A stretch of DNA of 64,000 nt, taken from Albidovulum denitrificans. GTDB taxonomy: Bacteria > Pseudomonadota > Alphaproteobacteria > Rhodobacterales > Rhodobacteraceae. The translations under genes and the position numbers were made by a program. Location of the stretch: assembly GCF_002973535.1 (NCBI RefSeq), contig NZ_PVEP01000010.1, positions 62,001 through 126,000 on the forward strand, read 5' to 3'. The notes below the pieces were generated by a model. That model was given only the letters and a program-made list of their open reading frames with translations, had not been told where the DNA came from and did no database searches. The stretch's first letter is position 1, and every line of letters starts with the position of its first letter. This document shows positions 9,304-23,583 of this stretch, piece after piece.

Positions 9304-9341
9304 CGGTCGGGGCGGCTTGCCGCGACTATTTCCCCGACGAC

Positions 9342-9368
9342 AAACAATTCCAAATGACCTAATTGTTT
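9342..9368. promoter_or_regulatory. Inverted repeat AAACAATT-N11-AATTGTTT, candidate operator
   Basis: Perfect 8-bp arms at 9342-9349 and 9361-9368, 19 bp centre to centre (about two helical turns), in the only gap before the seven-gene operon. TTTCCCCG occurs on each side (9329-9336 and 9366-9373). The AT-rich dyad in GC-rich DNA and its place about 70 nt before the start codon suggest a regulator site. The regulator is unknown. Confidence 0.5.
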
Positions 9369-9380
9369 CCCCGAAGCGCC

Positions 9381-9422
9381 ATGGTAATGCCAGAAAAGGC
9401 AATAGGCTGGCGCGGTTACCAT
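9381..9422 (+). promoter_or_regulatory. Two-part stem-loop in the leader of the HMG-CoA reductase homologue gene
   Basis: ATGGTAA (9381-9387) pairs with TTACCAT (9416-9422), and inside it GCCAG (9389-9393) pairs with CTGGC (9407-9411), leaving a loop of 13 nt. It ends 13 nt before the ATG at 9436, where no good Shine-Dalgarno sequence is seen. It could be an RNA structure controlling translation or a DNA site; this is inference. Confidence 0.4.
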
Positions 9423-9435
9423 TGATGGCGGTTTG

Positions 9436-10695
9436 ATGATCGTTCCTTTTCACGTCTCCGAGATGCTTCGCCGGGTGCGGCGCAAGATTGCCCAAAGCGG
9501 TGAGATGCCGCGCATGGCGCCCCGCCCCGACGACAGCCGCACCTTCCGCATCGCGCCTCGCGTGACGCCCGAGACGGTCGCGCGCCTGCACCGCGATCTG
9601 GGGCTGGATGACACCGCGCGCGCGGCGCTGTTCGGTCCCGGCACGCAAGAGGACCTGCCGCGCTATGCCCGCAATATCGAGAACATGATCGGCACCGTCG
9701 CGCTGCCGGTGGGCATGATCGGGCCGCTTCGGGTCAACGGGGTGAACGCCCAAGGCGACTACCCGGTGCCGATGGCGACGAGCGAGGCGGCGCTGGTCGC
9801 CTCTTACGGGCGCGGCGCGCGGGCGGCGAACCGGGCGGGCGGGGTCAGCACCGCGGTGCTTTACGAAGGGGTGCTGCGCAGCCCCGCCTTCGTCTTCGCG
9901 ACGCTGCTTGACGCCGGGCGTTTCGTCGAATGGGTCGTGGCGCATGTCGAGACGCTGAAGGTGGCGGCAGAGGCGACGACACGGCACGGCAAGCTTGTCT
10001 CGCTGGAACCCGTGATCGACAACAACATCGCCTTCCTGCTTTGCCGATATTCGACCGGCGATGCCTCGGGTCAGAACATGGTCACCATCGCGACGGATGC
10101 GCTTTGCCGCCATATCGCCGCGGAATGTCCGATCCGGCCAACGGCCTGGTATGTCGAGGGCAATTTTTCCGGCGACAAGAAGGCTTCGGGCCTTGGCATG
10201 ATCACCGGGCGGGGCCGCAAGGTCAGCGCCTCGGTCCTGCTGCCGGGTGAGGTGGTGACCCGTCTGCTTGGCACCAGCATCGACGCGATGCTGGACTATG
10301 CGCGGGTCGCCAATCTCGGTTCGCTCCTCTCCGGCCAGCTGGGCGCGCAGGCGCATTACGCCAATGGCCTTGCCGCGATCTATATCGCGACCGGGCAGGA
10401 CGCGGCTTGCGTGGCCGAAAGTGCCGTCGGCTTCACCCGGATGGAACGGCGCGAGGCGGGGCTTTTCTGTTCGGTGACCATGCCATCAATCCTTGTCGGC
10501 ACGGTGGGCGGCGGTACCGGCCTGCCGACGCAATCGGCCTGTCTGGAGTTGATGGGTCTCAAGGGCGAAGGCCACGGCCCCGCGCTGGCCGAGGTCACGG
10601 CGGCCGCCTGTCTTTGCGGTGAGATTTCCATTGTCGCGGCGATGGCCTCGGGCGCCTTTTCCGGCGCGCATGAGAAGTTGGCGCGCCTCAGATGA
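9436..10695 (+). CDS. HMG-CoA reductase homologue (class I-like)
   Basis: 419 residues. Class I HMG-CoA reductase signatures are clear: ENMIGTVALPVGMIGPL (82-98), MATSEAALVAS with Glu117, GDASGQNM (208-215), DKK at 247-249, AIYIATGQD with Asp322, VGTVGGGTGLPTQSACLE, and His412 near the C-terminus. The four catalytic positions of the family (Glu, Lys, Asp, His) are therefore present. The family reduces HMG-CoA to mevalonate with two NAD(P)H in the cytosol. No other mevalonate-pathway gene lies in the operon and this bacterial group normally uses the MEP pathway, so the natural substrate may be another acyl-CoA. The start is ATG 9436; a TTG lies just before it. First gene of a seven-gene operon; overlaps the next gene by 4 nt. 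Confidence 0.85.
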   Translation: MIVPFHVSEMLRRVRRKIAQSGEMPRMAPRPDDSRTFRIAPRVTPETVARLHRDLGLDDTARAALFGPGTQEDLPRYARNIENMIGTVALPVGMIGPLRVNGVNAQGDYPVPMATSEAALVASYGRGARAANRAGGVSTAVLYEGVLRSPAFVFATLLDAGRFVEWVVAHVETLKVAAEATTRHGKLVSLEPVIDNNIAFLLCRYSTGDASGQNMVTIATDALCRHIAAECPIRPTAWYVEGNFSGDKKASGLGMITGRGRKVSASVLLPGEVVTRLLGTSIDAMLDYARVANLGSLLSGQLGAQAHYANGLAAIYIATGQDAACVAESAVGFTRMERREAGLFCSVTMPSILVGTVGGGTGLPTQSACLELMGLKGEGHGPALAEVTAAACLCGEISIVAAMASGAFSGAHEKLARLR

Positions 10696-11606
10696 CCCCG
10701 TTTCAGCGTTTTTGGACCTATCAGCGGGAACGTTTCCCGCTTTTCAAGACGGTGCCGCTGCTGGCGGTCTTTTCGGCGGCCAGCATCAATATCTCTGCCC
10801 TCCTGGCCGGTCGCGCCTTGCCGGGGGCGGGGGCCTATGCCGCAGGTTTCGTCGCGGTGCTGATCCTCTTCTTCCAGATGCGCGCGGCGGATGAATGGAA
10901 GGACCGGGAGATCGACCGCCTCTACCGCCCCGAACGGGCGATCCCGCGCGGTCTGGTGCGGCTTTCGACCGTTCTTCTGATCGCGCTGGCGCTGGTGCCG
11001 GTGGCGCTGGGCGCCGCGCTGACGGTCGGCGCGGGGGCGGCGTGGCTTTTGCTGCTGGTCTGGGTCTGGCTTTCCGCGATGACGCTGGAATTCGGCGTGC
11101 CGCGCTGGCTGGTGGCGCATCCGTTGATCTATCTGGTCAGCCACATGGCGATCATGCCGCTGATCGACCTTTTCCTGACCGGGATCGAGTGGAGCGGCCG
11201 GGGCGGGCCTGCGCCCGCGCTCTGGCTGTTCCTCGCGCTGTCCTTCGTCAATGGCTGCGTGCTTGAGATCGGGCGCAAGACCTGGGCGCCCGAGGCGGAG
11301 CGGGACGGGGTGGAGAGCTATTCGAAGCTTTGGGGTCCGGTGCGCAGCGCGCGGGTCTGGATCGGGCTTGTCGCCGTCTCGGCCGCCTTGCTGGCGGGCG
11401 TCGGCTGGGCCGCCGGGCATTTCTGGCCGCTGGCCGCGCTGGCGGCGGCGGGGTTCGGCGCGGCGGTGTGGGTCGCGCTGCGCTTCATGCAACGCCCGGA
11501 CCCGGCCGGGCAGGCGCGGATCGACGCGGCGGCGGGGCTTTGGGTGTTGCTTTGTTATGCAGGCGCGGGCTTCGTGCCACTTCTCTTGCGGGGGGCCATG
11601 CCATGA
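10692..11606 (+). CDS. UbiA-superfamily membrane prenyltransferase
   Basis: 304 residues, about 8-9 membrane helices. The first Asp-rich loop is QMRAADEWKDREIDRLYRPE, a variant of the UbiA NxxxDxxxD motif in which Asp residues remain but the leading Asn is not obvious. The second loop is LEIGRKTWAPEAERDGVESY, matching the second polar motif of UbiA relatives. The superfamily moves prenyl groups from diphosphates onto aromatic, glyceryl-phosphate or other acceptors in the membrane with Mg2+. Acceptor and donor are unknown. It overlaps the genes on both sides (ATGA), and sits beside a reductase and a phosphotransferase. Confidence 0.78.
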   Translation: MTPFQRFWTYQRERFPLFKTVPLLAVFSAASINISALLAGRALPGAGAYAAGFVAVLILFFQMRAADEWKDREIDRLYRPERAIPRGLVRLSTVLLIALALVPVALGAALTVGAGAAWLLLLVWVWLSAMTLEFGVPRWLVAHPLIYLVSHMAIMPLIDLFLTGIEWSGRGGPAPALWLFLALSFVNGCVLEIGRKTWAPEAERDGVESYSKLWGPVRSARVWIGLVAVSAALLAGVGWAAGHFWPLAALAAAGFGAAVWVALRFMQRPDPAGQARIDAAAGLWVLLCYAGAGFVPLLLRGAMP

Positions 11607-14050
11607 GCGGGCTTTTGGGGCCGGATAGGGCGCGCGATCCCAATGACGTCGGCGGCAAGGCCGCCGCGCTGTCGCGCCTTGTCGCGGCGGGCTTCGACGT
11701 GCCGCCCTTCGTGGTTCTGGCCGATGCCGCCTTTCGGGCGAATGGCACCACGCTGCGCGCCGATGCGGCGCGGGCGCTGGCGGACGCGCTGGAACCGCTC
11801 GGTCCCGGCCCCTATGCCGTTCGTTCCTCCGCGCGCGGCGAGGATGGGGCAGAGGCCAGCCATGCGGGGCAGTTCGCCACCGTGCTGAACGTCCCGGCGG
11901 ATGGCGTCGCAGCCGCCGCCGCCAAGGTGCGCGCTTCGGGTCGTGCCGCCCATGTCGCGCGCTACCGGGCAGAGCGCGGGGTGGAGGCGGCGGGCCTTCC
12001 CGCCGTCGTCGTGCAGGCCATGGTGCCTGCCCGCGCCGCCGGGGTGGCCTTTTCCGCCGATCCGGTCTCTGGCGCGCGCGATACCGCCGTGATCTCTGCC
12101 GTCGCGGGGCTGGGCGAGGCGCTGGTCAGCGGCGAGGTGGATGGCGAAAGCTGGTCCGTCGCCGGTGATGGCCAGATCGCCACCGGCCCTGCGGTGCCTG
12201 AGGTCCTGACCGGTCCCGAGGCCACCGCCATCGCCGCCCTTGCCCGGCAGGCAGAGGCGGCCTTTGGCGCGCCGCAGGACATCGAATGGGCCTTTGACGG
12301 TGACCGGCTGCGGCTTCTTCAGGCGCGTCCGATCACCACCGCCCTGCGCCCCGCGCCCCGGCCCGACGGCGCGCTGACCGTTCTGGACAATTCCAACATC
12401 GTCGAAAGCTATCCCGGCCTCGTCTCCCCCCTGACCTACAGTTTTGCCGCCTATAGCTATGACCGCGTCTACCGCGCCTTCGTCGCCCTTCTGGGGCTGA
12501 GCGAAGCGCGCATCGCCGCGAATGGAGAGGTCTTCGCCAACCTCCTCGCCCGCGTCGACGGGCGGGTCTATTACAACCTTGGCAACTGGTACCGCGCGCT
12601 GGCGCTGCTGCCGGCCTTCTCGCTGAACAGCGACTACATGGAAACCATGATGGGCGTGGAGGAACCGCTGCCCGCGGAGCTGACCGGGGCGCTGGCCCCG
12701 CCGCCCGCGCGGGGCTTTCGCCGCGTGGTGGAATACCTGCGGCTGGCGCGGATCGGTGGCGGTCTGGTGGTTGAGGCCGCGCGTCTGGGCCGGACCAGGC
12801 GTCGCTTCCTCGCGCGGCTGGAAACCGCATTGAGGGCCGGGCCGGACCCGGCGACGGCGAACCCGACCGACCTTGCCGCGATCTACCGGCGGATCGAGGG
12901 GACGTTACTGGACCGCTGGGACGCGCCGCTTGTCAACGATTTCCTCTGCATGGTGGGTTTCGGCGCCTCGCGCGCGCTTTTGGGGAAATGGGCCGGTGAG
13001 GCCGGGTTGATGTTCCACAACGACGTGATGATCGGGCAGGGCGGGATCGTCTCCGCCGAACCCGCCCGCAGGATTGCCGCGATGGGCAGGATGGCGCGGG
13101 GCGACGCGGCGATGCTGGACGCGCTGGGCAAGGGGCGCGCGGCGCTGGCCGACCACCCCGCGCTTGACCGGGCGGTGTCGGACTATCTCGCCGACTTTGG
13201 CGACCGCTGCACCGAGGAGTTGAAGCTGGAAAGCCTGCCGCTGTCGGAAGAGCCGGGCCCGCTTCTGGCCGCGATTGCCAGTGCCGCGCACCGTCCCGAA
13301 GGCGGCGCGGCGGAACGGCCCGAACCCGACTGGGCCGCGCTGATGCCGGACAGCCCGTTCAAGCGAACCGTCGCGCGGCTTTTGACCGGATGGGCCGCCG
13401 CGCGGGTGCGGGACCGGGAAAACCTGCGGTTCGAACGCACCCGCATCTTCGCCCATGCCCGCCGCGTCTTTCTGGCGATGGGGCGCGAATTCCACGCGCG
13501 CGGCATGATCGGCGATCCGCGCGACGTGCTGTTCCTGACCGTGGCCGAGGTTCTGGGCGCCATCGAGGGCGCGGGCCTGTCGCGCGACCTTTCTGCCCTG
13601 ATCGCGCTGCGCAAGGCGGGGGCAGAGGCCGACGCCGCCCGCCCGGCGCCGCCCGAACGCATCCTCCTGCGCGGTGCCGTCGCCGCCCACCGGCCCCCGG
13701 CCGAGGTCGCCGCGCCCGCCGGAACCGGCGAGGACCGCCAGGGGACCGGCTGTTCCAAGGGCCGCGTGACGGCGCGCGCGCGTGTCGTCCGTGACCCGCG
13801 GCGCGAAACGTTGCTGCCGGGCGAAATCCTCGTCGCAGCCAATACCGATCCGGGCTGGATCGCGCTTTTCGCCGGGGCGGCGGCGATTGTCGTCGAACGC
13901 GGCTCTCTCCTCTCCCATTCCGCCATCGTCTCGCGCGAGATGGGTATTCCCTGTGTCGTCGGCATCCGCGACGCGACGCGCTGGATCGAGACCGGGGATC
14001 TGATCGAGGTCGACGGCGCCTCGGGGCAGGTGAGGAAGTGTCATGACTGA
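11603..14050 (+). CDS. Phosphohistidine-swivel dikinase (PEP synthase / rifampin phosphotransferase-like)
   Basis: 815 residues. Residues about 1-245 are the pyruvate-phosphate-dikinase ATP-binding domain (NDVGGKAAALSRLVAAGF; YAVRSSARGEDGAEASHAGQ; IEWAFDGDRLRLLQARPI). A long central domain about 250-700 has no family motif I recognise. The C-terminal swivel domain (about 715-815) carries SLLSHSAIVSREMGIPCVVG with the phosphoryl-carrier His772. There is no PEP/pyruvate-binding barrel after it. ATP domain, central substrate domain and terminal His domain is the order of rifampin phosphotransferase, which moves the ATP beta-phosphate to an alcohol. A small-molecule phosphorylation step is therefore the best guess. 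The start at 11603 overlaps the previous stop (ATGA). Confidence 0.8.
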   Translation: MSGLLGPDRARDPNDVGGKAAALSRLVAAGFDVPPFVVLADAAFRANGTTLRADAARALADALEPLGPGPYAVRSSARGEDGAEASHAGQFATVLNVPADGVAAAAAKVRASGRAAHVARYRAERGVEAAGLPAVVVQAMVPARAAGVAFSADPVSGARDTAVISAVAGLGEALVSGEVDGESWSVAGDGQIATGPAVPEVLTGPEATAIAALARQAEAAFGAPQDIEWAFDGDRLRLLQARPITTALRPAPRPDGALTVLDNSNIVESYPGLVSPLTYSFAAYSYDRVYRAFVALLGLSEARIAANGEVFANLLARVDGRVYYNLGNWYRALALLPAFSLNSDYMETMMGVEEPLPAELTGALAPPPARGFRRVVEYLRLARIGGGLVVEAARLGRTRRRFLARLETALRAGPDPATANPTDLAAIYRRIEGTLLDRWDAPLVNDFLCMVGFGASRALLGKWAGEAGLMFHNDVMIGQGGIVSAEPARRIAAMGRMARGDAAMLDALGKGRAALADHPALDRAVSDYLADFGDRCTEELKLESLPLSEEPGPLLAAIASAAHRPEGGAAERPEPDWAALMPDSPFKRTVARLLTGWAAARVRDRENLRFERTRIFAHARRVFLAMGREFHARGMIGDPRDVLFLTVAEVLGAIEGAGLSRDLSALIALRKAGAEADAARPAPPERILLRGAVAAHRPPAEVAAPAGTGEDRQGTGCSKGRVTARARVVRDPRRETLLPGEILVAANTDPGWIALFAGAAAIVVERGSLLSHSAIVSREMGIPCVVGIRDATRWIETGDLIEVDGASGQVRKCHD

Positions 14051-15134
14051 CCTGGCGATCACCGACCGCGCCGCCTTCGACCGCATCCGCTATGCCCAGG
14101 CGTGGGAGGATGCCGATGTCCTGACCGGCGCCATGGGCGCGCGGTCCGGCGGCGATCTGGTGTCGATCTGTGCCTCCGGCGACAACGCGCTGGCGCTGCT
14201 TTTGTGCGATCCGGCGCGGGTTCATGCGGTCGACATCTCGCCCGCGCAGATCGAATGCCTGAACCTGCGCCTTGGCGCCTATGCGGCGCTTTCGCATGGG
14301 GAGTTCCTGATCCTGATGGGCGCGCGCCCCGGCCCCGGCCGCGCGGCGCTGCTGGAAAAGGCGCTGCGCGACAGCCCGGCCCCGACGCAGCGCTTCTGGA
14401 GCGCGCTTCGGCCCGAGGTCGAAGCCCATGGCGCGGGCGGTGTCGGCAAGTTCGAACATTACTTCCGCATCTTCGCGCGCCGCCTTATGCCGCTGGTCCA
14501 CAGCCGCGCCACGGTCGAAGCGATTTTCGAACCCCGCGATCCGGTGGCGCGGGCGAAGTTCTTCGACACGCGGTTCAACACCTGGCGCTGGCGGATGCTG
14601 GTGAAGCTTTTCTTCTCGCGCGCGGCGATGGGGCGGCTGGGGCGGGACCGGGCGTTTTTCGATCATGTCGAGGGCAGCGTGGCGGACCATGTCTTCTCGC
14701 GCCTGCGCCATGCAGGGGTGGCGACCGATCCGTCGCAGAACCCCTACCTGCACTGGATCATGACCACCCGCCACGGCGCCGCCCTGCCGCTGCCCTGGCG
14801 GGAAGAGGCGTTTGCGACGATCCGTGACCGGCTTGACCGGATCGCGCCGCATCTGGGGCCGATCGAGACGCTGCCGGTCACCGGGGCGGCGGGGTTCTAC
14901 CTGTCGGACATCTTCGAATACATGTCGCCCGATCTGGCGGCCTCGGTCTATGGCACCGTTCTTGACATGGCGCGCCCCGGCGCGCGGCTGGTCTACTGGA
15001 ACATGATGGCGCCGCGCCGGGTACCGCCCGCCCATGCTTCCCGCGTCCGCACGCTGCGCGAGGAGGAGGCGCGGCTGAAGGCGCGGGACATGGCCTTTTT
15101 CTATTCCGATTTCGTGGTCGAAGAGGTGCTATGA
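14043..15134 (+). CDS. DUF3419 / BtaA-like S-adenosylmethionine-dependent 3-amino-3-carboxypropyltransferase
   Basis: 363 residues. Hallmarks of DUF3419 are present: YAQAWEDADVL (18-28), SICASGDNALALLL, AVDISPAQIECLNLRLGAY (Rossmann SAM site), and FYLSDIFEYMS. BtaA of this family transfers the 3-amino-3-carboxypropyl group of SAM to diacylglycerol to make the homoserine head of betaine lipids. No btaB-like N-methyltransferase is next to it, so the product would not be the usual betaine lipid unless methylation is encoded elsewhere. The operon context suggests a different alcohol acceptor. It overlaps the previous gene by 8 nt and the next by 4 nt. Confidence 0.8.
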   Translation: MTDLAITDRAAFDRIRYAQAWEDADVLTGAMGARSGGDLVSICASGDNALALLLCDPARVHAVDISPAQIECLNLRLGAYAALSHGEFLILMGARPGPGRAALLEKALRDSPAPTQRFWSALRPEVEAHGAGGVGKFEHYFRIFARRLMPLVHSRATVEAIFEPRDPVARAKFFDTRFNTWRWRMLVKLFFSRAAMGRLGRDRAFFDHVEGSVADHVFSRLRHAGVATDPSQNPYLHWIMTTRHGAALPLPWREEAFATIRDRLDRIAPHLGPIETLPVTGAAGFYLSDIFEYMSPDLAASVYGTVLDMARPGARLVYWNMMAPRRVPPAHASRVRTLREEEARLKARDMAFFYSDFVVEEVL

Positions 15135-16459
15135 ACACCTTCGTCCAGATCGCGGCGGTCCTTGCGCTGATCCTTGGCCTGCTTGGCACCATGGCCGGGC
15201 TGTCGCATCTGGCGAAGGCGCGGAGCTGGCACCCGGAGGTCGCGCGCAAGATCGTGCATGTCGCGGCCTCGGGCATCGCCATTCCGTTACCCTGGCTGTT
15301 CCCGGACACTTGGCCGGTCTGGCTGCTTCTGGCCCTGGCGCTGGCGGCGATGCTGGCGATGCGCACGCCGCTTCTGGCCGGGCCGGGCCGCGCGCTGCAT
15401 TCGGTCGCGCGCAAGTCCTGGGGCGATGTGCTGCTGGTCGTCTCGGTCGGCCTTGTCCTGTTGCTTTATCGGGGGGAGGCGGTGCTTTACGTCCTGCCGC
15501 TTCTGGTGCTGGCGCTTGGCGACGCGGCGGCGGCCCTGACCGGCAGCGCCTATGGCCGCAATTTCTACCGCACCGAGGATGGCAGCAAGAGCATCGAGGG
15601 CAGCACGATGTTCTTCCTTGTCGTGCTGATCCTGTCGATGGTCTGCCTGCTGCTGCTGACCGAGATGGCGCGGGGGACGCTGATCCTCGTCTCCCTCGGC
15701 GTCGCGGTCTTTGCCACCGTGATCGAGGCCGATAGCTGGCGCGGGTTCGACAATCTTTTCCTGCCGATGGGGGTGTTCCTGTTCCTCTGGCGGCTGACCG
15801 AGGCGCCGGGCGGCGACAGCCTTGCGCGGATGGCGCTGCCACTGGCGGCGATGGCGCTGGCCTACGGGGTCGGGCGCGCGGCGGGGATGAACCGCCAGGT
15901 CGCGCGCATCCATGCGGTCGCGATGTTCCTGATCCTGTCGGCGACGGATCTGTGGAACGCGGTGCTGCCCGCGCTGGTGCTGCTTGTCCACGGGACCTTC
16001 GCGTCGCGGCGGCCGGGTGCGGGGCTGGCGGCTGAGACGCTGGACATGGTCGCCGGTCTGGCGGTGCTGAGCTTCGGTTTCCTCGCGCTTGACCCTGCGG
16101 TGGGGCAAAGCGCGATCAACTTCTACGGGCTTGCCTGCGCCGCCGTCGCGGTGGCGCAGTTCGGGCGCGGGTTGTCGGGCCTTGGGCGCGGGTGGGCGGC
16201 GGTGGCGGCGCTGGTCTTCGCGGCGGCGGTCTGGGCGCTCTGGCTCTGGCTGATCGGGTTCAACAGTCCGGGCGCGCATTGGCACGGGCCGATCGGCGCG
16301 CCGGGTGCGGCGGTCCTTGCCCTGGCCGCGCTGGCCCCGACCCTTTCGCCCACGGCCTTCACCTGCGCCGCCGGGCGCCGCATCGCGCTTCTGGGCGCGG
16401 TTCCGGCGCTTTTGCTGTTCGGCGCCTGCCTGCTTCTTACCACCTCGGGGACGACATGA
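15131..16459 (+). CDS. Phytol/dolichol kinase-like integral membrane protein with extra C-terminal membrane half
   Basis: 442 residues, largely hydrophobic (about 12-14 helices). The N-terminal half (1-220) resembles the CTP-dependent phytol/dolichol kinase and CDP-diglyceride synthase superfamily: EVARKIVHVAASGIAI near the N-terminus, LALGDAAAALTGSAYGRNFY, then GSKSIEGSTMFF. The C-terminal half (about 220-442) is a further set of helices that I cannot assign, ending in a Cys-containing TAFTCAAGRR stretch. The superfamily phosphorylates polyprenols or activates phosphatidate with CTP at the membrane. Placement beside UbiA and BtaA-like enzymes suggests a prenyl-alcohol or lipid substrate. It overlaps both neighbours. 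Confidence 0.7.
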   Translation: MNTFVQIAAVLALILGLLGTMAGLSHLAKARSWHPEVARKIVHVAASGIAIPLPWLFPDTWPVWLLLALALAAMLAMRTPLLAGPGRALHSVARKSWGDVLLVVSVGLVLLLYRGEAVLYVLPLLVLALGDAAAALTGSAYGRNFYRTEDGSKSIEGSTMFFLVVLILSMVCLLLLTEMARGTLILVSLGVAVFATVIEADSWRGFDNLFLPMGVFLFLWRLTEAPGGDSLARMALPLAAMALAYGVGRAAGMNRQVARIHAVAMFLILSATDLWNAVLPALVLLVHGTFASRRPGAGLAAETLDMVAGLAVLSFGFLALDPAVGQSAINFYGLACAAVAVAQFGRGLSGLGRGWAAVAALVFAAAVWALWLWLIGFNSPGAHWHGPIGAPGAAVLALAALAPTLSPTAFTCAAGRRIALLGAVPALLLFGACLLLTTSGTT

Positions 16460-17301
16460 CGAAAGAGACCTATCAGATCGAGGGCGCCCGCGCGGCGGTC
16501 TATGCCGCAACCGCCCCGTGGGAGGGCGCCCCGACCGCCGCCATCGGCGATTTTCGCTGCGATGATGCAGAGGCCGGGGCAGCCCTTCTGCGCCAGATCT
16601 GCGCCGAGCTTGCCGGGCGGGGCGTGACCCGTGTTCTTGGTCCGATGAACGGCGATACCTGGCACAGCTATCGCCTTGTGATCGAAAGCGACGGCACGCC
16701 CCCCTTCCTGATGGAGCCGCAAAGCCGCCCCGCCGATCTCGCGGCCTTCGAGGCCGCCGGGTTCACCCGCATCGCGCGCTATTTCTCGGCCCGCGCGGCC
16801 CTGCGCGATGCCATCGGCCCCGCGCCCGACCCGCTGGAGGGGATCGAGATCGGCAACTGGGACGGTACCGCGCCCGAGGCGCATTTCGCCGAGGTCCATG
16901 CGCTCTCTACCCGCGCCTTTGCCGGGAACCTTTTCTACCGGCCCATCGACCTTGACGCCTTCCTTGGCCTTTACACGCCCTTCGTGCCGCTTCTGAAGCC
17001 CGGGCTGATCTTCACCGCGCGGGACCGCGTTGGCGCACTTGTCGGCTATCTTTTCGGCATCCCGAATTACGGCTCTGGCCCCGACCCCGACACGGTGATC
17101 CTGAAGACCTATGCCAGCCTTCATCCGGGTCTTGGCCACCATCTGGCCCATGCGTTCCATACCCGTGCGCAGGAGCTGGGGTTCGACAAGGTGATCCATG
17201 CGCTGATCCATGACGACAACCGCTCTGCCGACCGCAGCCGCCGCCACGGGGGGGAGATTTTCCGCCGCTACGCACTGATGGGGCGGCGGCTGGATGGCTG
17301 A
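16456..17301 (+). CDS. GNAT-family N-acyltransferase
   Basis: 281 residues starting at the ATG of an ATGA overlap. The first half includes IGDFRCDDAEAGAALL and VLGPMNGDTWHSYR, then FLMEPQSRP. The C-terminal half has the acetyl-CoA fold, with ARDRVGALVGYLFGIPNY as the central beta-strands and TYASLHPGLGHHLAHAFHTR as the pyrophosphate-loop helix. GNAT enzymes transfer an acyl group from acyl-CoA to an amine. An amine-bearing aminocarboxypropyl product of the upstream BtaA-like enzyme is a reasonable acceptor; this is inference. It overlaps the ligase gene by 8 nt. Confidence 0.72.
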   Translation: MTKETYQIEGARAAVYAATAPWEGAPTAAIGDFRCDDAEAGAALLRQICAELAGRGVTRVLGPMNGDTWHSYRLVIESDGTPPFLMEPQSRPADLAAFEAAGFTRIARYFSARAALRDAIGPAPDPLEGIEIGNWDGTAPEAHFAEVHALSTRAFAGNLFYRPIDLDAFLGLYTPFVPLLKPGLIFTARDRVGALVGYLFGIPNYGSGPDPDTVILKTYASLHPGLGHHLAHAFHTRAQELGFDKVIHALIHDDNRSADRSRRHGGEIFRRYALMGRRLDG

Positions 17302-18715
17302 CCTCGCCCGCCATTTCGCCGAGGCCGCGCGGCGCGAGGGGGAGAGGGTCGCGCTGGTCACCCCGCAGGGGGCCGAGAGCTTTGCCGGGATCGACCGCCG
17401 CGCCGCCGCCTTCGCCGCCCGCTGCGCGGCGCGGGGGCTGGGCAAGGGCGACCGGGTGCTGATTGCGATGCCGGTCGGCGTCGATCTTTACGTCGCGCTG
17501 GCGGCCTGCTGGCGGCTGGGCGCGGTCGCGGTCTTTCCCGAACCGGCGATGGGGATCGCGGGGCTGCGCCATGCGGTCGCGCTGAGCCGGCCGAAATGCC
17601 TTTTCGCCTCGGGCCGCTACCGGTTCCTGCGCCTGCTCCCGGCGCTTTGGCGCTGCCCGGTCCTGTCGCCGTCCCCTGCCGACCGGGGCGGCCCCGCGCC
17701 GGTGCCGCTGGCGGATCGGGATCTGGCGCTGATCTCCTTCACCTCCGGCTCGACCGGCGCGCCGAAGGCGATCCCGCGCAGCCATGGCTTCCTGATGGCG
17801 CAATACGATGCGGTGCGGCGGCTTCTGGCATCAGAGCGGGAGGAGGTGGACCTGGTCGCCTTCCCGGTCTTCTGCCTCGTCAACCTGGCCGAGGGGCGGA
17901 CCAGCGTCCTGCCGAATTGGAAGATTTCGCGCCCCGATGGCGTGTTGCCGGACAAGCTTGCGGCCTGGATCGCGCGGTCCGGAGCGACGCGGGCGCTGTT
18001 GCCGCCGGGCCTGTGCGAGGTGTTGGCCCGCGCCGACATGCCGCGCGCCCTGCACACCGTCTTTACCGGCGGCGGCCCGGTGAAACCCGCGCTGGTCGGG
18101 CGGTTGCAGGCCCGCCGTCCGGGGCTGCGCATCGTGTCGGTCTATGGCTCGACCGAGGCGGAACCGATTGCCGATCTCGACTGGGCCGAGGTCGGCGACG
18201 GGGACCGTTCCGCGATGGCGGGGGGCGCGGGTCTGTTGGCGGGGGTGCCGGTCGAAGGCACCGCGCTGAAGATCGTTGAGGGGGAGATCTGGGTTGCCGG
18301 GGCGCATGTGAACGCCCATTACCTCGACCCGGCGATGGAGGCCGGGACCAAGGTGCGTGAGGGCGCGACGGTCTGGCACCGGACGGGCGATGCCGGGCGG
18401 CTGGACGACAGCGGCCGGCTTTGGCTGCTGGGCCGGACCGGGGCGGTGGTGGAGGGGGCCGGGGGGCCGATCTATCCCTTCGCCGTGGAGCTTGCCGCCG
18501 AAAGCTGGCCCGGCGTCGCGCGGGCCGCGCTGGCCGGGGCGGGCGGTGCCCCGGTTCTGGTGATCGAAGGCGCGGCGGATGTGGCGGATTGCACCCACCG
18601 CGCGCGCGCTTTGGGCATTGCGCGGGTGGTCAAGGTTGCCGCCATCCCGCTGGACAGACGACACCGATCAAAGGTCGATTACACCGCGCTGCAACGGCTT
18701 TTGCCGCAAGGATAG
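17294..18715 (+). CDS. AMP-forming acyl ligase / acyl-CoA synthetase-like
   Basis: 473 residues. Adenylation motifs: A3 ISFTSGSTGAPKAIPRSH (about 152-169), A5 SVYGSTEAEPIA, A7 HRTGDAGRLDDSGRLW, and a terminal PLDRRHRSKVDY with the likely catalytic lysine. The protein is short, with a reduced C-terminal lid, as in OleC-like and other fatty-acid ligase relatives. It would activate a carboxylate with ATP to an acyl-AMP, then thioester or, in OleC relatives, a beta-lactone. Substrate unknown. Last gene of the seven-gene operon; its stop is 4 bp from the convergent end of the nir cluster. Confidence 0.82.
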   Translation: MADLARHFAEAARREGERVALVTPQGAESFAGIDRRAAAFAARCAARGLGKGDRVLIAMPVGVDLYVALAACWRLGAVAVFPEPAMGIAGLRHAVALSRPKCLFASGRYRFLRLLPALWRCPVLSPSPADRGGPAPVPLADRDLALISFTSGSTGAPKAIPRSHGFLMAQYDAVRRLLASEREEVDLVAFPVFCLVNLAEGRTSVLPNWKISRPDGVLPDKLAAWIARSGATRALLPPGLCEVLARADMPRALHTVFTGGGPVKPALVGRLQARRPGLRIVSVYGSTEAEPIADLDWAEVGDGDRSAMAGGAGLLAGVPVEGTALKIVEGEIWVAGAHVNAHYLDPAMEAGTKVREGATVWHRTGDAGRLDDSGRLWLLGRTGAVVEGAGGPIYPFAVELAAESWPGVARAALAGAGGAPVLVIEGAADVADCTHRARALGIARVVKVAAIPLDRRHRSKVDYTALQRLLPQG

Positions 18716-18719
18716 CGGT

Positions 18720-18980
18720 TCAGCGATCTTCCGCCTCACGGATCATGCCCCGCACCCAGCGCGCGGCGAGCCATGTGGCGGGCAGCGACAAGGGCAGCGC
18801 GCCGATCAGCGCCGCGACGGGCGGGATGTTCCCCGCCCATCCGGCCGAATGGAAGATCAGCCCCAGAAGGAACAGGTTGATCGCCACCGCCCCGGCCACG
18901 AAGGGCCAGAGGATCGCGCCCAGCTTCCACAGGTTTTCAGTGGCTGGTGCCGTCTTCGAAGGTGATCTTGTTCCAGACAT
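18720..18980 (-). CDS. Small two-helix membrane protein at the end of the nir operon
   Basis: About 86 residues from the ATG at 18980, which overlaps the end of nirN by 44 nt. Two hydrophobic segments (WPFVAGAVAINLFLLGLIF and IPPVAALIGALPLSLPATWL) and a basic C-terminal WVRGMIREAEDR. No ATG, GTG or TTG lies nearer to the nirN stop, so the start rests on lack of alternatives. No family was recognised. Location as the last gene of the nitrite reductase operon suggests a role in cytochrome cd1 or heme d1 maturation, which is inference. Confidence 0.6.
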   Translation of the reverse strand: MSGTRSPSKTAPATENLWKLGAILWPFVAGAVAINLFLLGLIFHSAGWAGNIPPVAALIGALPLSLPATWLAARWVRGMIREAEDR

Positions 18981-20481
18981 TGTATTTCCCCGAGGGCTTG
19001 ACCATCGGCAAGCGCCGGACTTCCTCCAGCGTCGCCGCGTCAAAGACGATCACCGCGCCGTCCTGTTCCCAGATTGACACCAGCGCATAGCGCCCGTCCT
19101 TGGTGAATTCCGTATGCGCGACCGTCTTGCCGGGTTCGGGCGTCAGCACCTTCACCACCTCAAGCGTCTCTTTGTCGATGATATGCATCTGGCCCTTGTT
19201 CGGCCCGGTAAAGACATCGGCCCAGATATAGGGCGTCCCGTCATGGGAACGCAGGAAAAAGCCGGGGCCGGAGGTTTTTATGATCTTCACAAGGCTCCAG
19301 TCGGCCATGTCGATGACGCTGATCTGGCCCTCGTTCAGATGCGGCACTGCCATCAGGCGATGACCGCCCCGCATCCAGCTTATGCCGGACCCCAGATGCG
19401 GCATGCCGGGCAGCGGCAGGCTCGCGATCTCACGCCCCACGTCGAGGTTGACGACGACGCCGGTTTCCCCCGCGCGGTTGGCGCCGATCAGGTTGTGATA
19501 GCCGGGATCGAAGAAGAAATCGTCAAGGGGCGCGGACACGTCGATCCGACGGCGTGCGAAAAGACCCTGCTCGGCTTCCAGCGATTCCTCCATCCCCGCC
19601 TCGTGGCTGTGGACGAAGCCGTCGTGATAGGGACCGGCATTCGGGTCGGTCGCGACCTCCCATATCTCCGGCACGTCCTTCAGCGCGAGGATGAAGGAGT
19701 TGCGGTCGGGCGCCTGATAGACGGCGGAGACGCGGCTGGGCGTCCCCTTGCGGCCCTTCACCTCCATCACCCTGGCGACGGACAGGTCATCCGTCGACAA
19801 GATCGTCAGCGTTTCCGGCAGGTAGCTGGCAACGGCCAGCCATTTGCCATCCGCGCTCATCGCGATGTTGCGGCTGTTCAATCCGGCGCGGATGCGGCCC
19901 ACCTCATGCAGGGACCAGATGTCGTATTTCTGCACCCAGCCATCGCGCGACATGACAAAGACATAGCGCCCGTCGGGCGAGAATTTCGGCCCGCCATGGA
20001 CGGCGAAGGGGGTTTCGAACCTGTCCAGCACCGCGAAGGTGTCGCCGTCGAGGACGGAGATATGGCTGTCGCCGGTTTCCACCACCAGCGTGATGTTCAT
20101 CGGGTCGGCGGTGAAGACTGGGGCCGTCGCGGCGACATAGTCCGGGTTCATCGCCCGGCTGGCGGCGATCTCTTCCGCGGTCCAGACCGGCGGCGTGGCC
20201 AGCGGGGCGGAGACATAGGCGGCGACCGCCGCGATTTCGTCTGGCGAGAGCGTCGCCTTGAAGGACGGCATCTGCGTCATGGCGCGGCCATCGGTGATGA
20301 CGGCCTCCAGCCGGTCGCCCTTCAACCGGCCAAGGCTTTCGGGGATCAGCGCCGGGCCGGTGCCGCCGAACCGCGTCTCGGCGTGGCAAGAGGCGCATTG
20401 ATCGGCGTAGATCATCGCCCCGTCCGGCGCGGCAAGGGCAGTGGTGGCGAGCAGGCTAAAGGAAACGATGAGCCGGATCAT
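18937..20481 (-). CDS. nirN: NirN, heme d1 biogenesis cytochrome c-type dihydro-heme d1 dehydrogenase
   Basis: 514 residues. A signal peptide ([17 protein letters not shown]) is followed by a c-type heme site CASCH (29-33) and an eight-bladed d1-type propeller with repeated SPDGRYVF-like blades and the end [10 protein letters not shown]. NirN is a periplasmic relative of NirS that oxidises dihydro-heme d1 to heme d1 at the end of cofactor synthesis. The ATG at 20481 is preferred for the signal peptide; one at 20493 is possible. It overlaps nirJ by 26 nt. Confidence 0.93.
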
Positions 20482-21664
20482 GGCTTTTCCCACGGAAGGG
20501 CGTGACGGTCAGGCGCGCGGCCTCATCCACGCCGATTTCGGCATTGGTCATGTAGCAGGCCGGGTCCTCGGCCCAGGGATCGCCGGTCACCTGAAGCGCG
20601 CGGATGCGGGTATTGCCGCCGCAGACCGCCTTGAAGGCGCAGGCACCGCAGCGGCCTTTCAGCGGCCGGGGACGGGTGCGCAGCGTGGCCAACATCGGGT
20701 CGCCGCCGGTCCAGAGCGTGCTGAACGGCGTCTCCTTGACCGATCCGACGGTGTAGTCGGACCAGTAGGTGTCGGGATGGACCTTGCCCTGCGGGTCGAT
20801 ATTGCCGACGCCAAGGCCCGAGGAATTGCCGCCCCAGGCCTCAAGATGCGCGCGGACATGGGCGGCCTTTTCCGGCCCGAACTTGCGGTTGACCCATTCC
20901 AGGAAATAGACCGCGTCGGCGTCGTTGTTGCCGGTCACGACCTCAAGCGGCTGGCCGTTCTTCACCGCGTCCCAGGCCCGCGCGATCAACAGGTCCATGG
21001 CCGACCGGGTCAGGGCGTGCTGGGTATCCTCGCCCCGGTTCTTGTCGCCGCGTCCGGCATAGACCAGGTGGCTGAGATAGAACTTGTCCACGCCCTCATC
21101 CCGGCAGAGGTCGAGCATTCCGGGCAGGTAGCCGGCGTTCGCCTCGGTGATGGTGAAGCGCAGGCCGACCTTGACGCCCTTCGCCTTGCAGGCGCGGACG
21201 CCCTCCAGCGCCTCGACAAACGCGCCCTCGACGCCGCGGAACCAGTCGTTCTTGGCGCCCAGCCCGTCCAGCGAGATGCCGACATAGTCGAAACCGATAT
21301 CGGCGATGCGGTCGATGTTCTTCGCGATGCGGGTGCCGTTGGTGGACAGCGACAGGTGGCGGAAGTTCAATTCCTTCGCCCGTTCCGCCAGTTCGAAGAA
21401 ATCGAACCGGCTGAGCGGCTCCCCCCCGGACAGGATCAGCGCCGGGATGCCAAACGCCTTGAGGTCGTCAAGGACGCCCATCGCCTGTTCATGCGTCAAC
21501 TCGCCGGGAAACGGCACATCGGCCGAGGTCGTGTAGCAATGGCGGCAGCGCAGGTTGCAGCGCCGGGTGAGGTTCCAGATCACCACCGGTTTGACCGGAC
21601 CCGAACGGCGGCGCACCGGCGTGGGGGTGACAAGCTCGTGCATGTATTGCGTCAGGCGGAACAT
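20456..21664 (-). CDS. nirJ: NirJ, radical SAM enzyme of heme d1 synthesis
   Basis: 402 residues. The radical SAM site [14 protein letters not shown] gives Cys36, Cys40 and Cys43 for the 4Fe-4S cluster; [10 protein letters not shown] is the SAM-binding GGE motif. The C-terminal [12 protein letters not shown] with later CYM is the SPASM-like auxiliary cluster region. NirJ removes propionate side chains from 12,18-didecarboxysiroheme in the cytoplasm. It lies directly after nirH. Confidence 0.95.
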
Positions 21665-21665
21665 C

Positions 21666-22151
21666 TCAGCCCTTTCCGGTTAGCCGCATCCCGGTCTTTT
21701 TCAGGATGCGGGTGGAATACAGAATGTCATGGCCCCGACAGGCCGGGCCGAGAAGGGCCGCGACCTTGGTGCGCTTTTCCTCGACCTCGTCGCGCGTCGT
21801 GCCATGGAGCATGGCGAAGAGGTTATAGGGCCAGTCCGGCAGTGCGCGCGGGCGGCGGTAGCAATGGCTGACGAAATCGAGCGCGCCTATCTGCGGGCCA
21901 AGGTCGTCCACGATGGCGTCGTCCACGTCCCAGACGCTCATCCCGTTGGCGGTCATGCCAAGGGCGTAGTGGTTGGGGGCAAGGGCCACGCGGCGGATCA
22001 CGCCCGACGCCTGCATCGCGCCGACACGGTCCAGCACCTCGCCCTCGGTCAGGCCAAGCCAGCCCGCGACCTCGGCATAGGGCGCCGACACCAGCGGCAG
22101 CCCGCAGGAGGTTGCGGCGATGATGCGGCGATCTGTGGCGTCGATGCTCAT
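21666..22151 (-). CDS. nirH: NirH, siroheme decarboxylase subunit (Lrp/AsnC-like)
   Basis: 161 residues with an N-terminal Lrp-type helix-turn-helix ([20 protein letters not shown]...[14 protein letters not shown]) and an AsnC-like C-terminal domain ([24 protein letters not shown]). NirD, L, G and H proteins act together as siroheme decarboxylase, giving 12,18-didecarboxysiroheme. Its start overlaps nirG by 4 nt. The NirH versus NirL naming rests on gene order. Confidence 0.88.
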
Positions 22152-22621
22152 GCTTTGACCCGGAAGCCGATGAAGAATTCGTTCTCCTTGGGAAAGCGCA
22201 GGACGGTCAGCCCCGTCGCCCCCTCGATACGCTTCGCGGCCTTGGCGATCCCTTCGGGCTTTTCACAAGCCAGGACGAACCACATGTTCAGCCGGTGCGC
22301 GCGTTCATAATTATGCGCCACCTCCGGCAGCGCATTGACCAAAGTCACGACCGCATCGAAGCGGTCGGCGGGAACCTCCATCGCGCAGAGGCAGAAGGCG
22401 CCGCCCATCGCCTCGGCGTCGTAGAAGGGGCCAAAGCGGGTGATGGCGCCGATCTCGCGCAGCCGGGCGACACGCTCGATCAACTCGCTTTCGGGCAGCG
22501 CCAACTGGCGGGCGGCCTCGGCAAAGGGGCGCGCGGTCACCGGCAACCCGTCCTGCAAGGCGTTCAGGACGGCGCGGTCGGTCGCGTCAAGCGCATCGGG
22601 GGGAAGGGCCGCGCGTCTCAT
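22148..22621 (-). CDS. nirG: NirG, siroheme decarboxylase subunit (Lrp/AsnC-like)
   Basis: 157 residues from the ATG at 22621, which overlaps the nirDL stop (ATGA). HTH segment DATDRAVLNALQDGLPVTAR and the AsnC-like body with FGPFYDAEAMGGAF, AHNYERAHRLNMWFVLA and FPKENEFFIGFR. These match the NirG/NirD half of siroheme decarboxylase, with the histidine-containing HNYER segment of the active site. Coupled to nirDL and nirH. Confidence 0.88.
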   Translation of the reverse strand: MRRAALPPDALDATDRAVLNALQDGLPVTARPFAEAARQLALPESELIERVARLREIGAITRFGPFYDAEAMGGAFCLCAMEVPADRFDAVVTLVNALPEVAHNYERAHRLNMWFVLACEKPEGIAKAAKRIEGATGLTVLRFPKENEFFIGFRVKA

Positions 22622-23583
22622 GCCGCGGCCGAGATCAGCGCGCCCGTCTGCTTGAAGCAGCGGGTGGAGAAGAGCGGCTTCGCGGTGGTCCCCGCCAGTT
22701 CCGGCAGCGCGCGGGCGCGGTCGAGGACGGCCAGCGCCTCGGCCCGGCTGCGGCCGTGGATCATGGAATAAAGCGCATAGGGCCAGACGCCCGGCACGGT
22801 TTCGCGCTGGTAGCACAGCGTCACGCCCGGCAGGGCGGACAGCGCGGTTCCGGCGGCGGGGATGCGGTCGGGGGCGATGTCCCAGACCACCATCGCATTC
22901 GCCGTCCAGCCCAGCGGGCGGTGGCGCACGATGACGCCAAGGCGGGTGATGACACGGGCCTGAAGCAGCGTGGCGATGCGGGCCAGCGCGTCCGTCTCGG
23001 CCAGTCCCAGCGCGGCGAAGGGGCGCGGGGTCAGCGGCAGCCCGCGCGACAGGCGGGCCAGCAGGGCGCGGTCATCTTCGGTCAGATCAAGCGCGCGGGC
23101 GCCCCTGTCCGGCGCCATCGGGCGGCGCGTTCCGTCAAGGCGGAACCCGAGGTCGATGTTGAACGCCCGCACAAGGCGCAGGTCGAGAACGCGCAGGCCG
23201 GTGCGGTTGCCGATCCGCGCAAGGCTTTCGTCAAGCGCCACCGGATCGGGGGCGGTGGCGACGAACCAGATGTTCCAGCGATCCTCGCGCAGGTAGGAAT
23301 GGTTGACGCCCGCTTCGTCATTGACGATGGCCGCGACCTCTTCGATCCGGCCCTCCGGCACCGCCAGCGCGGCGAGGGTGGAGGCCCCGGCGGTGTTCGG
23401 CCGCACCGTCGCGCCCACGCGCGCCACCGCGCCATCGGCGCTCAGCCGGGCGAGGCGGTCGATCACCTCGGCTTCGGGGATGCCAAGGGTGGCCGCCATG
23501 GCCTGAAACGGACGTTCCACCAGCGGCAGGTCGCGCTGAAATTCGTCCAGCAGACGGGCGTCGATGGGATCGCGGCCCTCCAT
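22618..23583 (-). CDS. nirDL: NirDL, fused siroheme decarboxylase subunits
   Basis: 321 residues containing two Lrp/AsnC-like units: about 1-155 (NirD-like; NHSYLREDRWNIWFVATA) and about 165-321 (NirL-like; ETVPGVWPYALYSMIHG, FSTRCFKQTG). Each unit has its own HTH. The fusion is common in alphaproteobacteria. Together with NirG and NirH it decarboxylates siroheme. ATG at 23583 lies 3 nt after the nirF stop; a GTG at 23589 that overlaps the stop is an alternative start. Confidence 0.9.
   Translation of the reverse strand: MEGRDPIDARLLDEFQRDLPLVERPFQAMAATLGIPEAEVIDRLARLSADGAVARVGATVRPNTAGASTLAALAVPEGRIEEVAAIVNDEAGVNHSYLREDRWNIWFVATAPDPVALDESLARIGNRTGLRVLDLRLVRAFNIDLGFRLDGTRRPMAPDRGARALDLTEDDRALLARLSRGLPLTPRPFAALGLAETDALARIATLLQARVITRLGVIVRHRPLGWTANAMVVWDIAPDRIPAAGTALSALPGVTLCYQRETVPGVWPYALYSMIHGRSRAEALAVLDRARALPELAGTTAKPLFSTRCFKQTGALISAAA

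Follow-up and report, generated by a model that had tools for sequence, protein, structure and literature searches.

A seven-gene operon conserved across two bacterial phyla and its possible role in the synthesis of an isoprenoid-type aminolipid

What is made by seven overlapping genes that encode relatives of a 3-hydroxy-3-methylglutaryl-coenzyme A (HMG-CoA) reductase, a prenyltransferase, two kinases, an aminocarboxypropyl transferase, an acyltransferase and an acyl ligase? These genes occupy positions 9436-18715, all on the + strand, of a 64,000-nucleotide (nt) stretch of the Albidovulum denitrificans genome (contig NZ_PVEP01000010.1, positions 62,001 to 126,000; hereafter the window) and are designated, in order, H (HMG-CoA-reductase homologue), U (UbiA superfamily), D (dikinase), B (BtaA-like), P (phytol-kinase-like), G (GNAT) and L (ligase). 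The successive open reading frames (ORFs) overlap by 4, 4, 8, 4, 4 and 8 nt, in exact agreement with an earlier note made from the sequence alone, and, as the genes overlap, they are presumably transcribed as a single RNA. The same note recognised no described pathway with this gene set and, within the open literature searched, that is borne out; subscription papers and preprints were outside the search. The Lipocone paper mentions other UbiA and HMG-CoA reductase (HMGR) neighbourhoods, not this operon (PMC12419801). All of the parts belong to known families and, provisionally, it is the combination that is new. We are confident that the seven genes constitute one dedicated biosynthetic pathway. 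A tentative answer to the question of its product is an isoprenoid-type aminolipid, made at the membrane by the mechanism proposed below from an operon that spread as a unit.

Conservation and rearrangement of the gene set

The identical seven genes, in the identical order, are present in four other genera of the Rhodobacteraceae. An alignment of D scanned against 84,980 species genomes identified 80 loci. With the four loci from the other genera, of which three or more come from strains already represented in the scan, 84 were available for comparison. The exact order H-U-D-B-P-G-L is present in 73 of these. The remaining eleven are cut by contig ends, are frame-broken copies with the same order or have an extra weak ligase match, and every copy that is neither contig-cut nor frame-broken has the identical order. 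With start codons picked automatically, the median junctions across the loci are -4, -1, -11, -4, -4 and -8 nt, and nearly all junctions are overlaps. The carriers belong to two phyla, Pseudomonadota, both alpha- and gammaproteobacteria (including Rhodobacterales, Bosea, Chelativorans, Rhizobium, Bartonella apihabitans, Sphingomonadales and the gammaproteobacterial Granulosicoccaceae), and Verrucomicrobiota (for example Haloferula, Luteolibacter and an Akkermansia record). The patterns used in the scan were fitted to Rhodobacteraceae, and the operon may therefore occur more widely than detected. Pairwise-distance matrices calculated for the seven proteins from 74 loci are correlated at 0.87-0.96, to which shared descent contributes; with shuffled labels, the correlation of H with U was at most 0.29. 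Gene-neighbourhood analysis, the check that the earlier note had proposed, thus documents the seven families as syntenic across two phyla, and this synteny together with the co-inheritance rules out a chance association or an annotation artefact.

Further carriers were found in a sample of 289 genomes of the Verrucomicrobiota group, with the gene orders HUDBPGL, HBPGLUD, BPGLUD and UDBPGL. That the set is kept despite rearrangement argues strongly for a single pathway. A search for any HMGR at E <= 1e-20 gave no match in six Verrucomicrobiota carrier genomes, for which completeness is not given, and in one H-less genome the contig that carries the operon is nearly the whole genome. H is a usual, not an obligatory, member of the operon. 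Within the genus of the window, a D orthologue was present in none of 21 sampled genomes, and in a sample of 387 genomes from the class full-length P was found only in the genome of the window. This patchy occurrence indicates that the operon has probably spread between bacteria horizontally, as a unit.

Additional genes accompany many copies. A sulfotransferase and a P450 flank the operon in many Rhodobacterales (51-76% identity, mostly divergent from H), homologues occur beside the operon at two Verrucomicrobiota loci, and more distant P450s adjoin several other copies. The pair is present neither near the operon of the window nor elsewhere in the window, and this sulfotransferase is absent from that genome. 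The description of the operon as having seven genes is to be qualified, as H is missing in some Verrucomicrobiota and the P450 and sulfotransferase are often added. One carrier (locus L022, 1920-4876) has sqdB-like and sqdD-like (sulfolipid) ORFs and a sugar epimerase, recognised by eye, upstream of its operon copy.

The HMG-CoA-reductase homologue

Active-site residues were surveyed in 78-82 sequences of each protein. The key catalytic positions of all seven are invariant, or nearly so, and all seven active sites look intact as judged from these alignments. H (9436-10695; 419 amino acids (aa); Pfam HMG-CoA_red, E 1.5e-108) has the class I HMGR fold and all of the catalytic residues, E82, K248, D322 and H412, equivalent to human E559, K691, D767 and H866, are kept in every sequence that covers the position. 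H nevertheless scores 319 bits against the 442-bit cut-off of the NCBIfam equivalog, is phylogenetically separate from the canonical enzymes and has changes in residues that bind HMG. HMG is held at its terminal carboxylate by a salt bridge with Lys735, and Ser684 contributes to the polar contacts at the same site (PMC9500038). In 81 of 81 operon HMGRs, the position of human Ser684 (E241 in H) is occupied by Glu and that of Lys735 (A292 in H) by Ala or Ser, and both are changed in the divergent operons too.

HMG-CoA synthase (PF01154) is absent from all 12 carriers searched, under conditions in which positive-control genomes gave matches. The genome of the window has one GHMP kinase, presumably IspE, and so does not have a mevalonate kinase set. 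A complete mevalonate pathway is ruled out by the missing synthase and the single GHMP kinase. Given the changes at the Ser684 and Lys735 positions and the absence of HMG-CoA synthase, H fairly probably does not use HMG-CoA and acts on a different substrate. The earlier note had suggested a reductase that converts a CoA ester to an alcohol, and the remodelled pocket and the missing synthase lend support to such a role with an ester other than HMG-CoA.

A stand-alone HMGR from Vibrio and Photobacterium (L133-L138) nests inside the clade of operon HMGRs in a maximum-likelihood tree (enclosing branch 100/98), with weaker support for its exact sister group (84/66). Like H, this orphan enzyme does not have Lys735, but it has Asp (in one case Glu) at the Ser684 position where H has Glu, and its gene has no other operon gene beside it. 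The assignment of the orphan-HMGR genomes to Vibrio relies on an identity of 98.8%, at the protein level, with Vibrio sp. THAF190c. One gene of this type is located on an 83-kb plasmid of Vibrio fluvialis. A second clade of gamma- and alphaproteobacterial class I HMGR homologues (L139-L148), about 390-515 aa in length, also lacks both Lys735 and operon neighbours.

The kinases, the prenyltransferase and the acyl-handling enzymes

The families to which the earlier note had assigned the genes were confirmed by Pfam for H, U, D, B and L and by homologues and a structural model for G, and the assignment of P is supported by motifs. Sequence searches of the PDB with B, P and G returned nothing useful.

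P (15131-16459; 442 aa), a phytol/dolichol-kinase-like membrane protein predicted to use cytidine triphosphate (CTP), has no Pfam match of its own. The N-terminal kinase domain contains the motifs RK..H, D131xxA..G138xxxG142 and K153SxEG, with R39, K40, H43, D131, G138, K153, E156 and G157 present in 79 of 79 sequences and G142 in 77, and it is followed by an extra, C-terminal transmembrane half. An RKxxH clamp is a feature of prenol kinases (PMC10849223), and DxxAxxxGxxxGx8KKTxEG is the CTP motif of CTP-using enzymes (PMC5853391). P shares the clamp, a DxxAxxxGxxxG...KSxEG motif and membrane topology with the phytol kinase VTE5 and dolichol kinase, but has a spacer of 9 rather than 8 residues, ~200 additional C-terminal residues with transmembrane helices and Pfam scores below threshold; divergent P homologues give weak matches to CTP_transf_1. 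The model of P (predicted local distance difference test (pLDDT) score 91) had no Foldseek match in the PDB at E <= 0.001 and, as no solved structure matches, P is assigned by motif and not by fold. Two further relatives were encountered, a P homologue that adjoins a class IV aminotransferase, with no other operon gene, in a Verrucomicrobiota genome (L182, 8191-10429) and, in an alphaproteobacterium with a small genome (1.4 Mb), a stand-alone protein of 221 aa that corresponds to the N-terminal kinase half of P only (L191, 8642-9307).

D (11603-14050; 815 aa) is a swivelling-domain dikinase with an N-terminal ATP-binding domain, a middle domain and a C-terminal mobile domain that carries the catalytic H772; this His and the ATP-site residues are conserved. 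The only Pfam matches are to PPDK_N (2e-41) and the PEP-utilizers mobile domain (7.4e-25), and the protein ends after the latter. It shares the ATP-binding domain and the mobile domain with its catalytic His with rifampicin phosphotransferase, PigC/RedH and phosphoenolpyruvate (PEP) synthase, but has no PEP-binding barrel and falls far below all NCBIfam cut-offs. D is not a PEP synthase, as the barrel that binds PEP or pyruvate is missing.

U (10692-11606; 304 aa; Pfam UbiA, E 3.4e-13) is a membrane prenyltransferase of the UbiA superfamily in which the first Asp motif, NDxxDxxxD, is kept with its N replaced by D and a D by E; D67, E68, D71 and D75 are invariant in 82 of 82 sequences. The usual second motif, DxxxD, is replaced by the invariant residues E192, R195, K196 and E203 (E192xxRKx(6)E203).

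B (14043-15134; 363 aa; Pfam DUF3419, E 4.8e-48) is a BtaA-like, predicted 3-amino-3-carboxypropyltransferase that would use S-adenosylmethionine (AdoMet), and is the only DUF3419 protein in its genome. It shares the DUF3419 fold, the AdoMet motif, conserved across the survey, and a Y.Q.WED motif with BtaA. The two differ in context, as canonical btaA has a btaB-looking neighbour, and B is only about 26% identical to the canonical BtaA of a genome from the same genus, in which a methyltransferase-like ORF follows btaA. There is no methyltransferase, and so no BtaB partner, among the seven conserved genes. This absence and the divergence of B from BtaA rule out canonical betaine-lipid synthesis and, with no BtaB in the operon, G would find the amine introduced by B unmodified. 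G (16456-17301; 281 aa) has no Pfam match of its own, but 15 of 42 homologues match Acetyltransf_1, and the best Foldseek matches of its AlphaFold model (pLDDT 95) are tandem GNATs, consistent with an N-acyltransferase. L (17294-18715; 473 aa; Pfam AMP-binding, E 1.1e-41) is an acyl-AMP-forming ligase with ATP motifs and a catalytic Lys, K460, that are kept across the survey. The nearest group and best-scoring model is PRK09274, the OleC-like AMP ligases, with which L shares these motifs, but L scores 273 bits against a cut-off of 478 and the operon has no OleA, OleB or OleD partners.

A proposed pathway, its alternatives and the setting of the operon

In plants, phytol kinase, phytyl-phosphate kinase and a UbiA-type prenyltransferase act in sequence. 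The tocopherol and phytol salvage route (VTE5, VTE6 and the UbiA-type VTE2) has the logic that we propose for P, D and U, an alcohol kinase, a second phosphorylation and a UbiA transferase, but here a swivelling dikinase would take the place of the second kinase, and the ligase, HMGR-like, BtaA-like and GNAT proteins have no plant counterparts. By analogy with this relay, and from the enzyme families, L would convert a carboxylic acid to a CoA ester, which H, an HMGR fold re-tuned to a substrate without the distal carboxylate of HMG, would reduce with two NADPH to an alcohol. P would phosphorylate the alcohol with CTP, and D would add a further phosphate by way of its swinging phospho-histidine, generating a diphosphate-type leaving group. 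U would then move the alkyl or prenyl group onto a membrane acceptor, B would use AdoMet to install a 3-amino-3-carboxypropyl group, and G would acylate the free, unmethylated amine. In some bacteria, the P450 and sulfotransferase may then decorate the product. The loss of H from some carriers fits with H as a supply step, replaceable by another source of the alcohol. The substrates that are phosphorylated, prenylated, aminocarboxypropylated and acylated are suggested by family membership, and the full order of steps is, if anything, slightly more tentative than the aminolipid proposal as a whole. A new class of lipid or signalling molecule, with the HMGR fold converted to a different acyl-CoA-to-alcohol reductase, with a CTP kinase, a dikinase and a UbiA protein by which a non-canonical alkyl diphosphate is formed and consumed, and with a self-contained, horizontally spread operon, falls just short of being probable.

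Several observations weigh against this pathway. Other bacterial class I HMGRs also do not have Lys735, so that its loss is not unique to the operon. We know of no precedent for a dikinase that acts on an alkyl phosphate, and D could instead phosphorylate a hydroxyl, as does rifampicin phosphotransferase, or catalyse a ligation, as does PigC. With a non-canonical second metal motif in U, an allylic diphosphate may not be the donor, and L could instead serve G, next to which it is usually encoded, as a source of acyl groups.

Of the alternatives, one that is unlikely, but survives best, places the chemistry in the head group. B would aminocarboxypropylate a lipid hydroxyl, G acylate the amine, L activate the carboxyl and H reduce it to give an N-acyl-homoserinol ether lipid, with P, D and U making or phosphorylating the anchor. 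In this scheme B, G, L and H act in a single series of reactions, the genes B-P-G-L are contiguous in nearly all arrangements and the invariant E241 at the Ser684 position could, as a guess, hold an amine or amide. Of the six Verrucomicrobiota genomes that have no HMGR, however, at least five keep B, P, G and L, and in these the activated carboxyl would stay unreduced. Somewhat less likely still is that H is a true HMG-CoA reductase, supplied with HMG-CoA from leucine breakdown, with L making mevalonyl-CoA and G transferring the mevalonyl group to an amine. SidI and SidF catalyse such mevalonyl-CoA formation and transfer to an amine in fungal siderophore synthesis, H has the complete set of HMGR catalytic residues, and the ligase and acyltransferase genes are nearly always present and adjacent; but the Ser684 and Lys735 positions are both changed throughout, HMG-CoA synthase is missing and some operons keep L and G without H. 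A betaine-lipid-like, phosphorus-free replacement lipid for the membrane, built around BtaA-like chemistry and made under phosphate starvation, is improbable, as membership of B in the BtaA family and the sulfolipid-type genes seen by eye at L022 are outweighed by the low identity of B to BtaA, the lack of BtaB, two phosphate-transferring enzymes, P and D, that do not suit a pathway meant to spare phosphate, and the absence of a conserved upstream motif, Pho boxes not having been searched for specifically.

The operon is separated from an upstream ABC-transporter ATPase gene on the same strand by 132 nt (9304-9435), presumably a leader and promoter region. The earlier note had envisaged a single promoter region here, but searches at this operon found neither a sigma-70-like promoter nor a terminator, and no motif is conserved among 48 upstream regions of operon copies. 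No Rfam family reaches the gathering threshold anywhere in the window. An inverted repeat, ATGGTAA...TTACCAT (9379-9424), lies just 5' of H and, by eye, is not kept in other carriers. Immediately 3' of the operon, on the opposite strand (18720-22816), are genes that resemble those for cytochrome cd1 nitrite reductase and heme d1 maturation (nir-like). Within that region, ARAGORN calls a tRNA-Sec (20627-20719) opposite a radical-SAM ORF, where Rfam predicts nothing, and the call is thus probably a false positive.

The retention of the gene set across two phyla, even after rearrangement, indicates strong selection for a product that is apparently unnamed. Among the carriers are marine roseobacters, rhizobia-related soil bacteria, Bartonella from the bee gut and records of the Akkermansia group, and the compound may thus be of importance to communities in the sea and in hosts. 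One member of the set is a form of HMG-CoA reductase, the target of statins, that appears to have been repurposed, and the operon offers a testable answer to the question of why bacteria that make isoprenoids without mevalonate, Vibrio among them, retain an HMG-CoA reductase. If the proposal is correct, the orphan HMGR of Vibrio would derive from the pathway of this operon and not from the mevalonate pathway.

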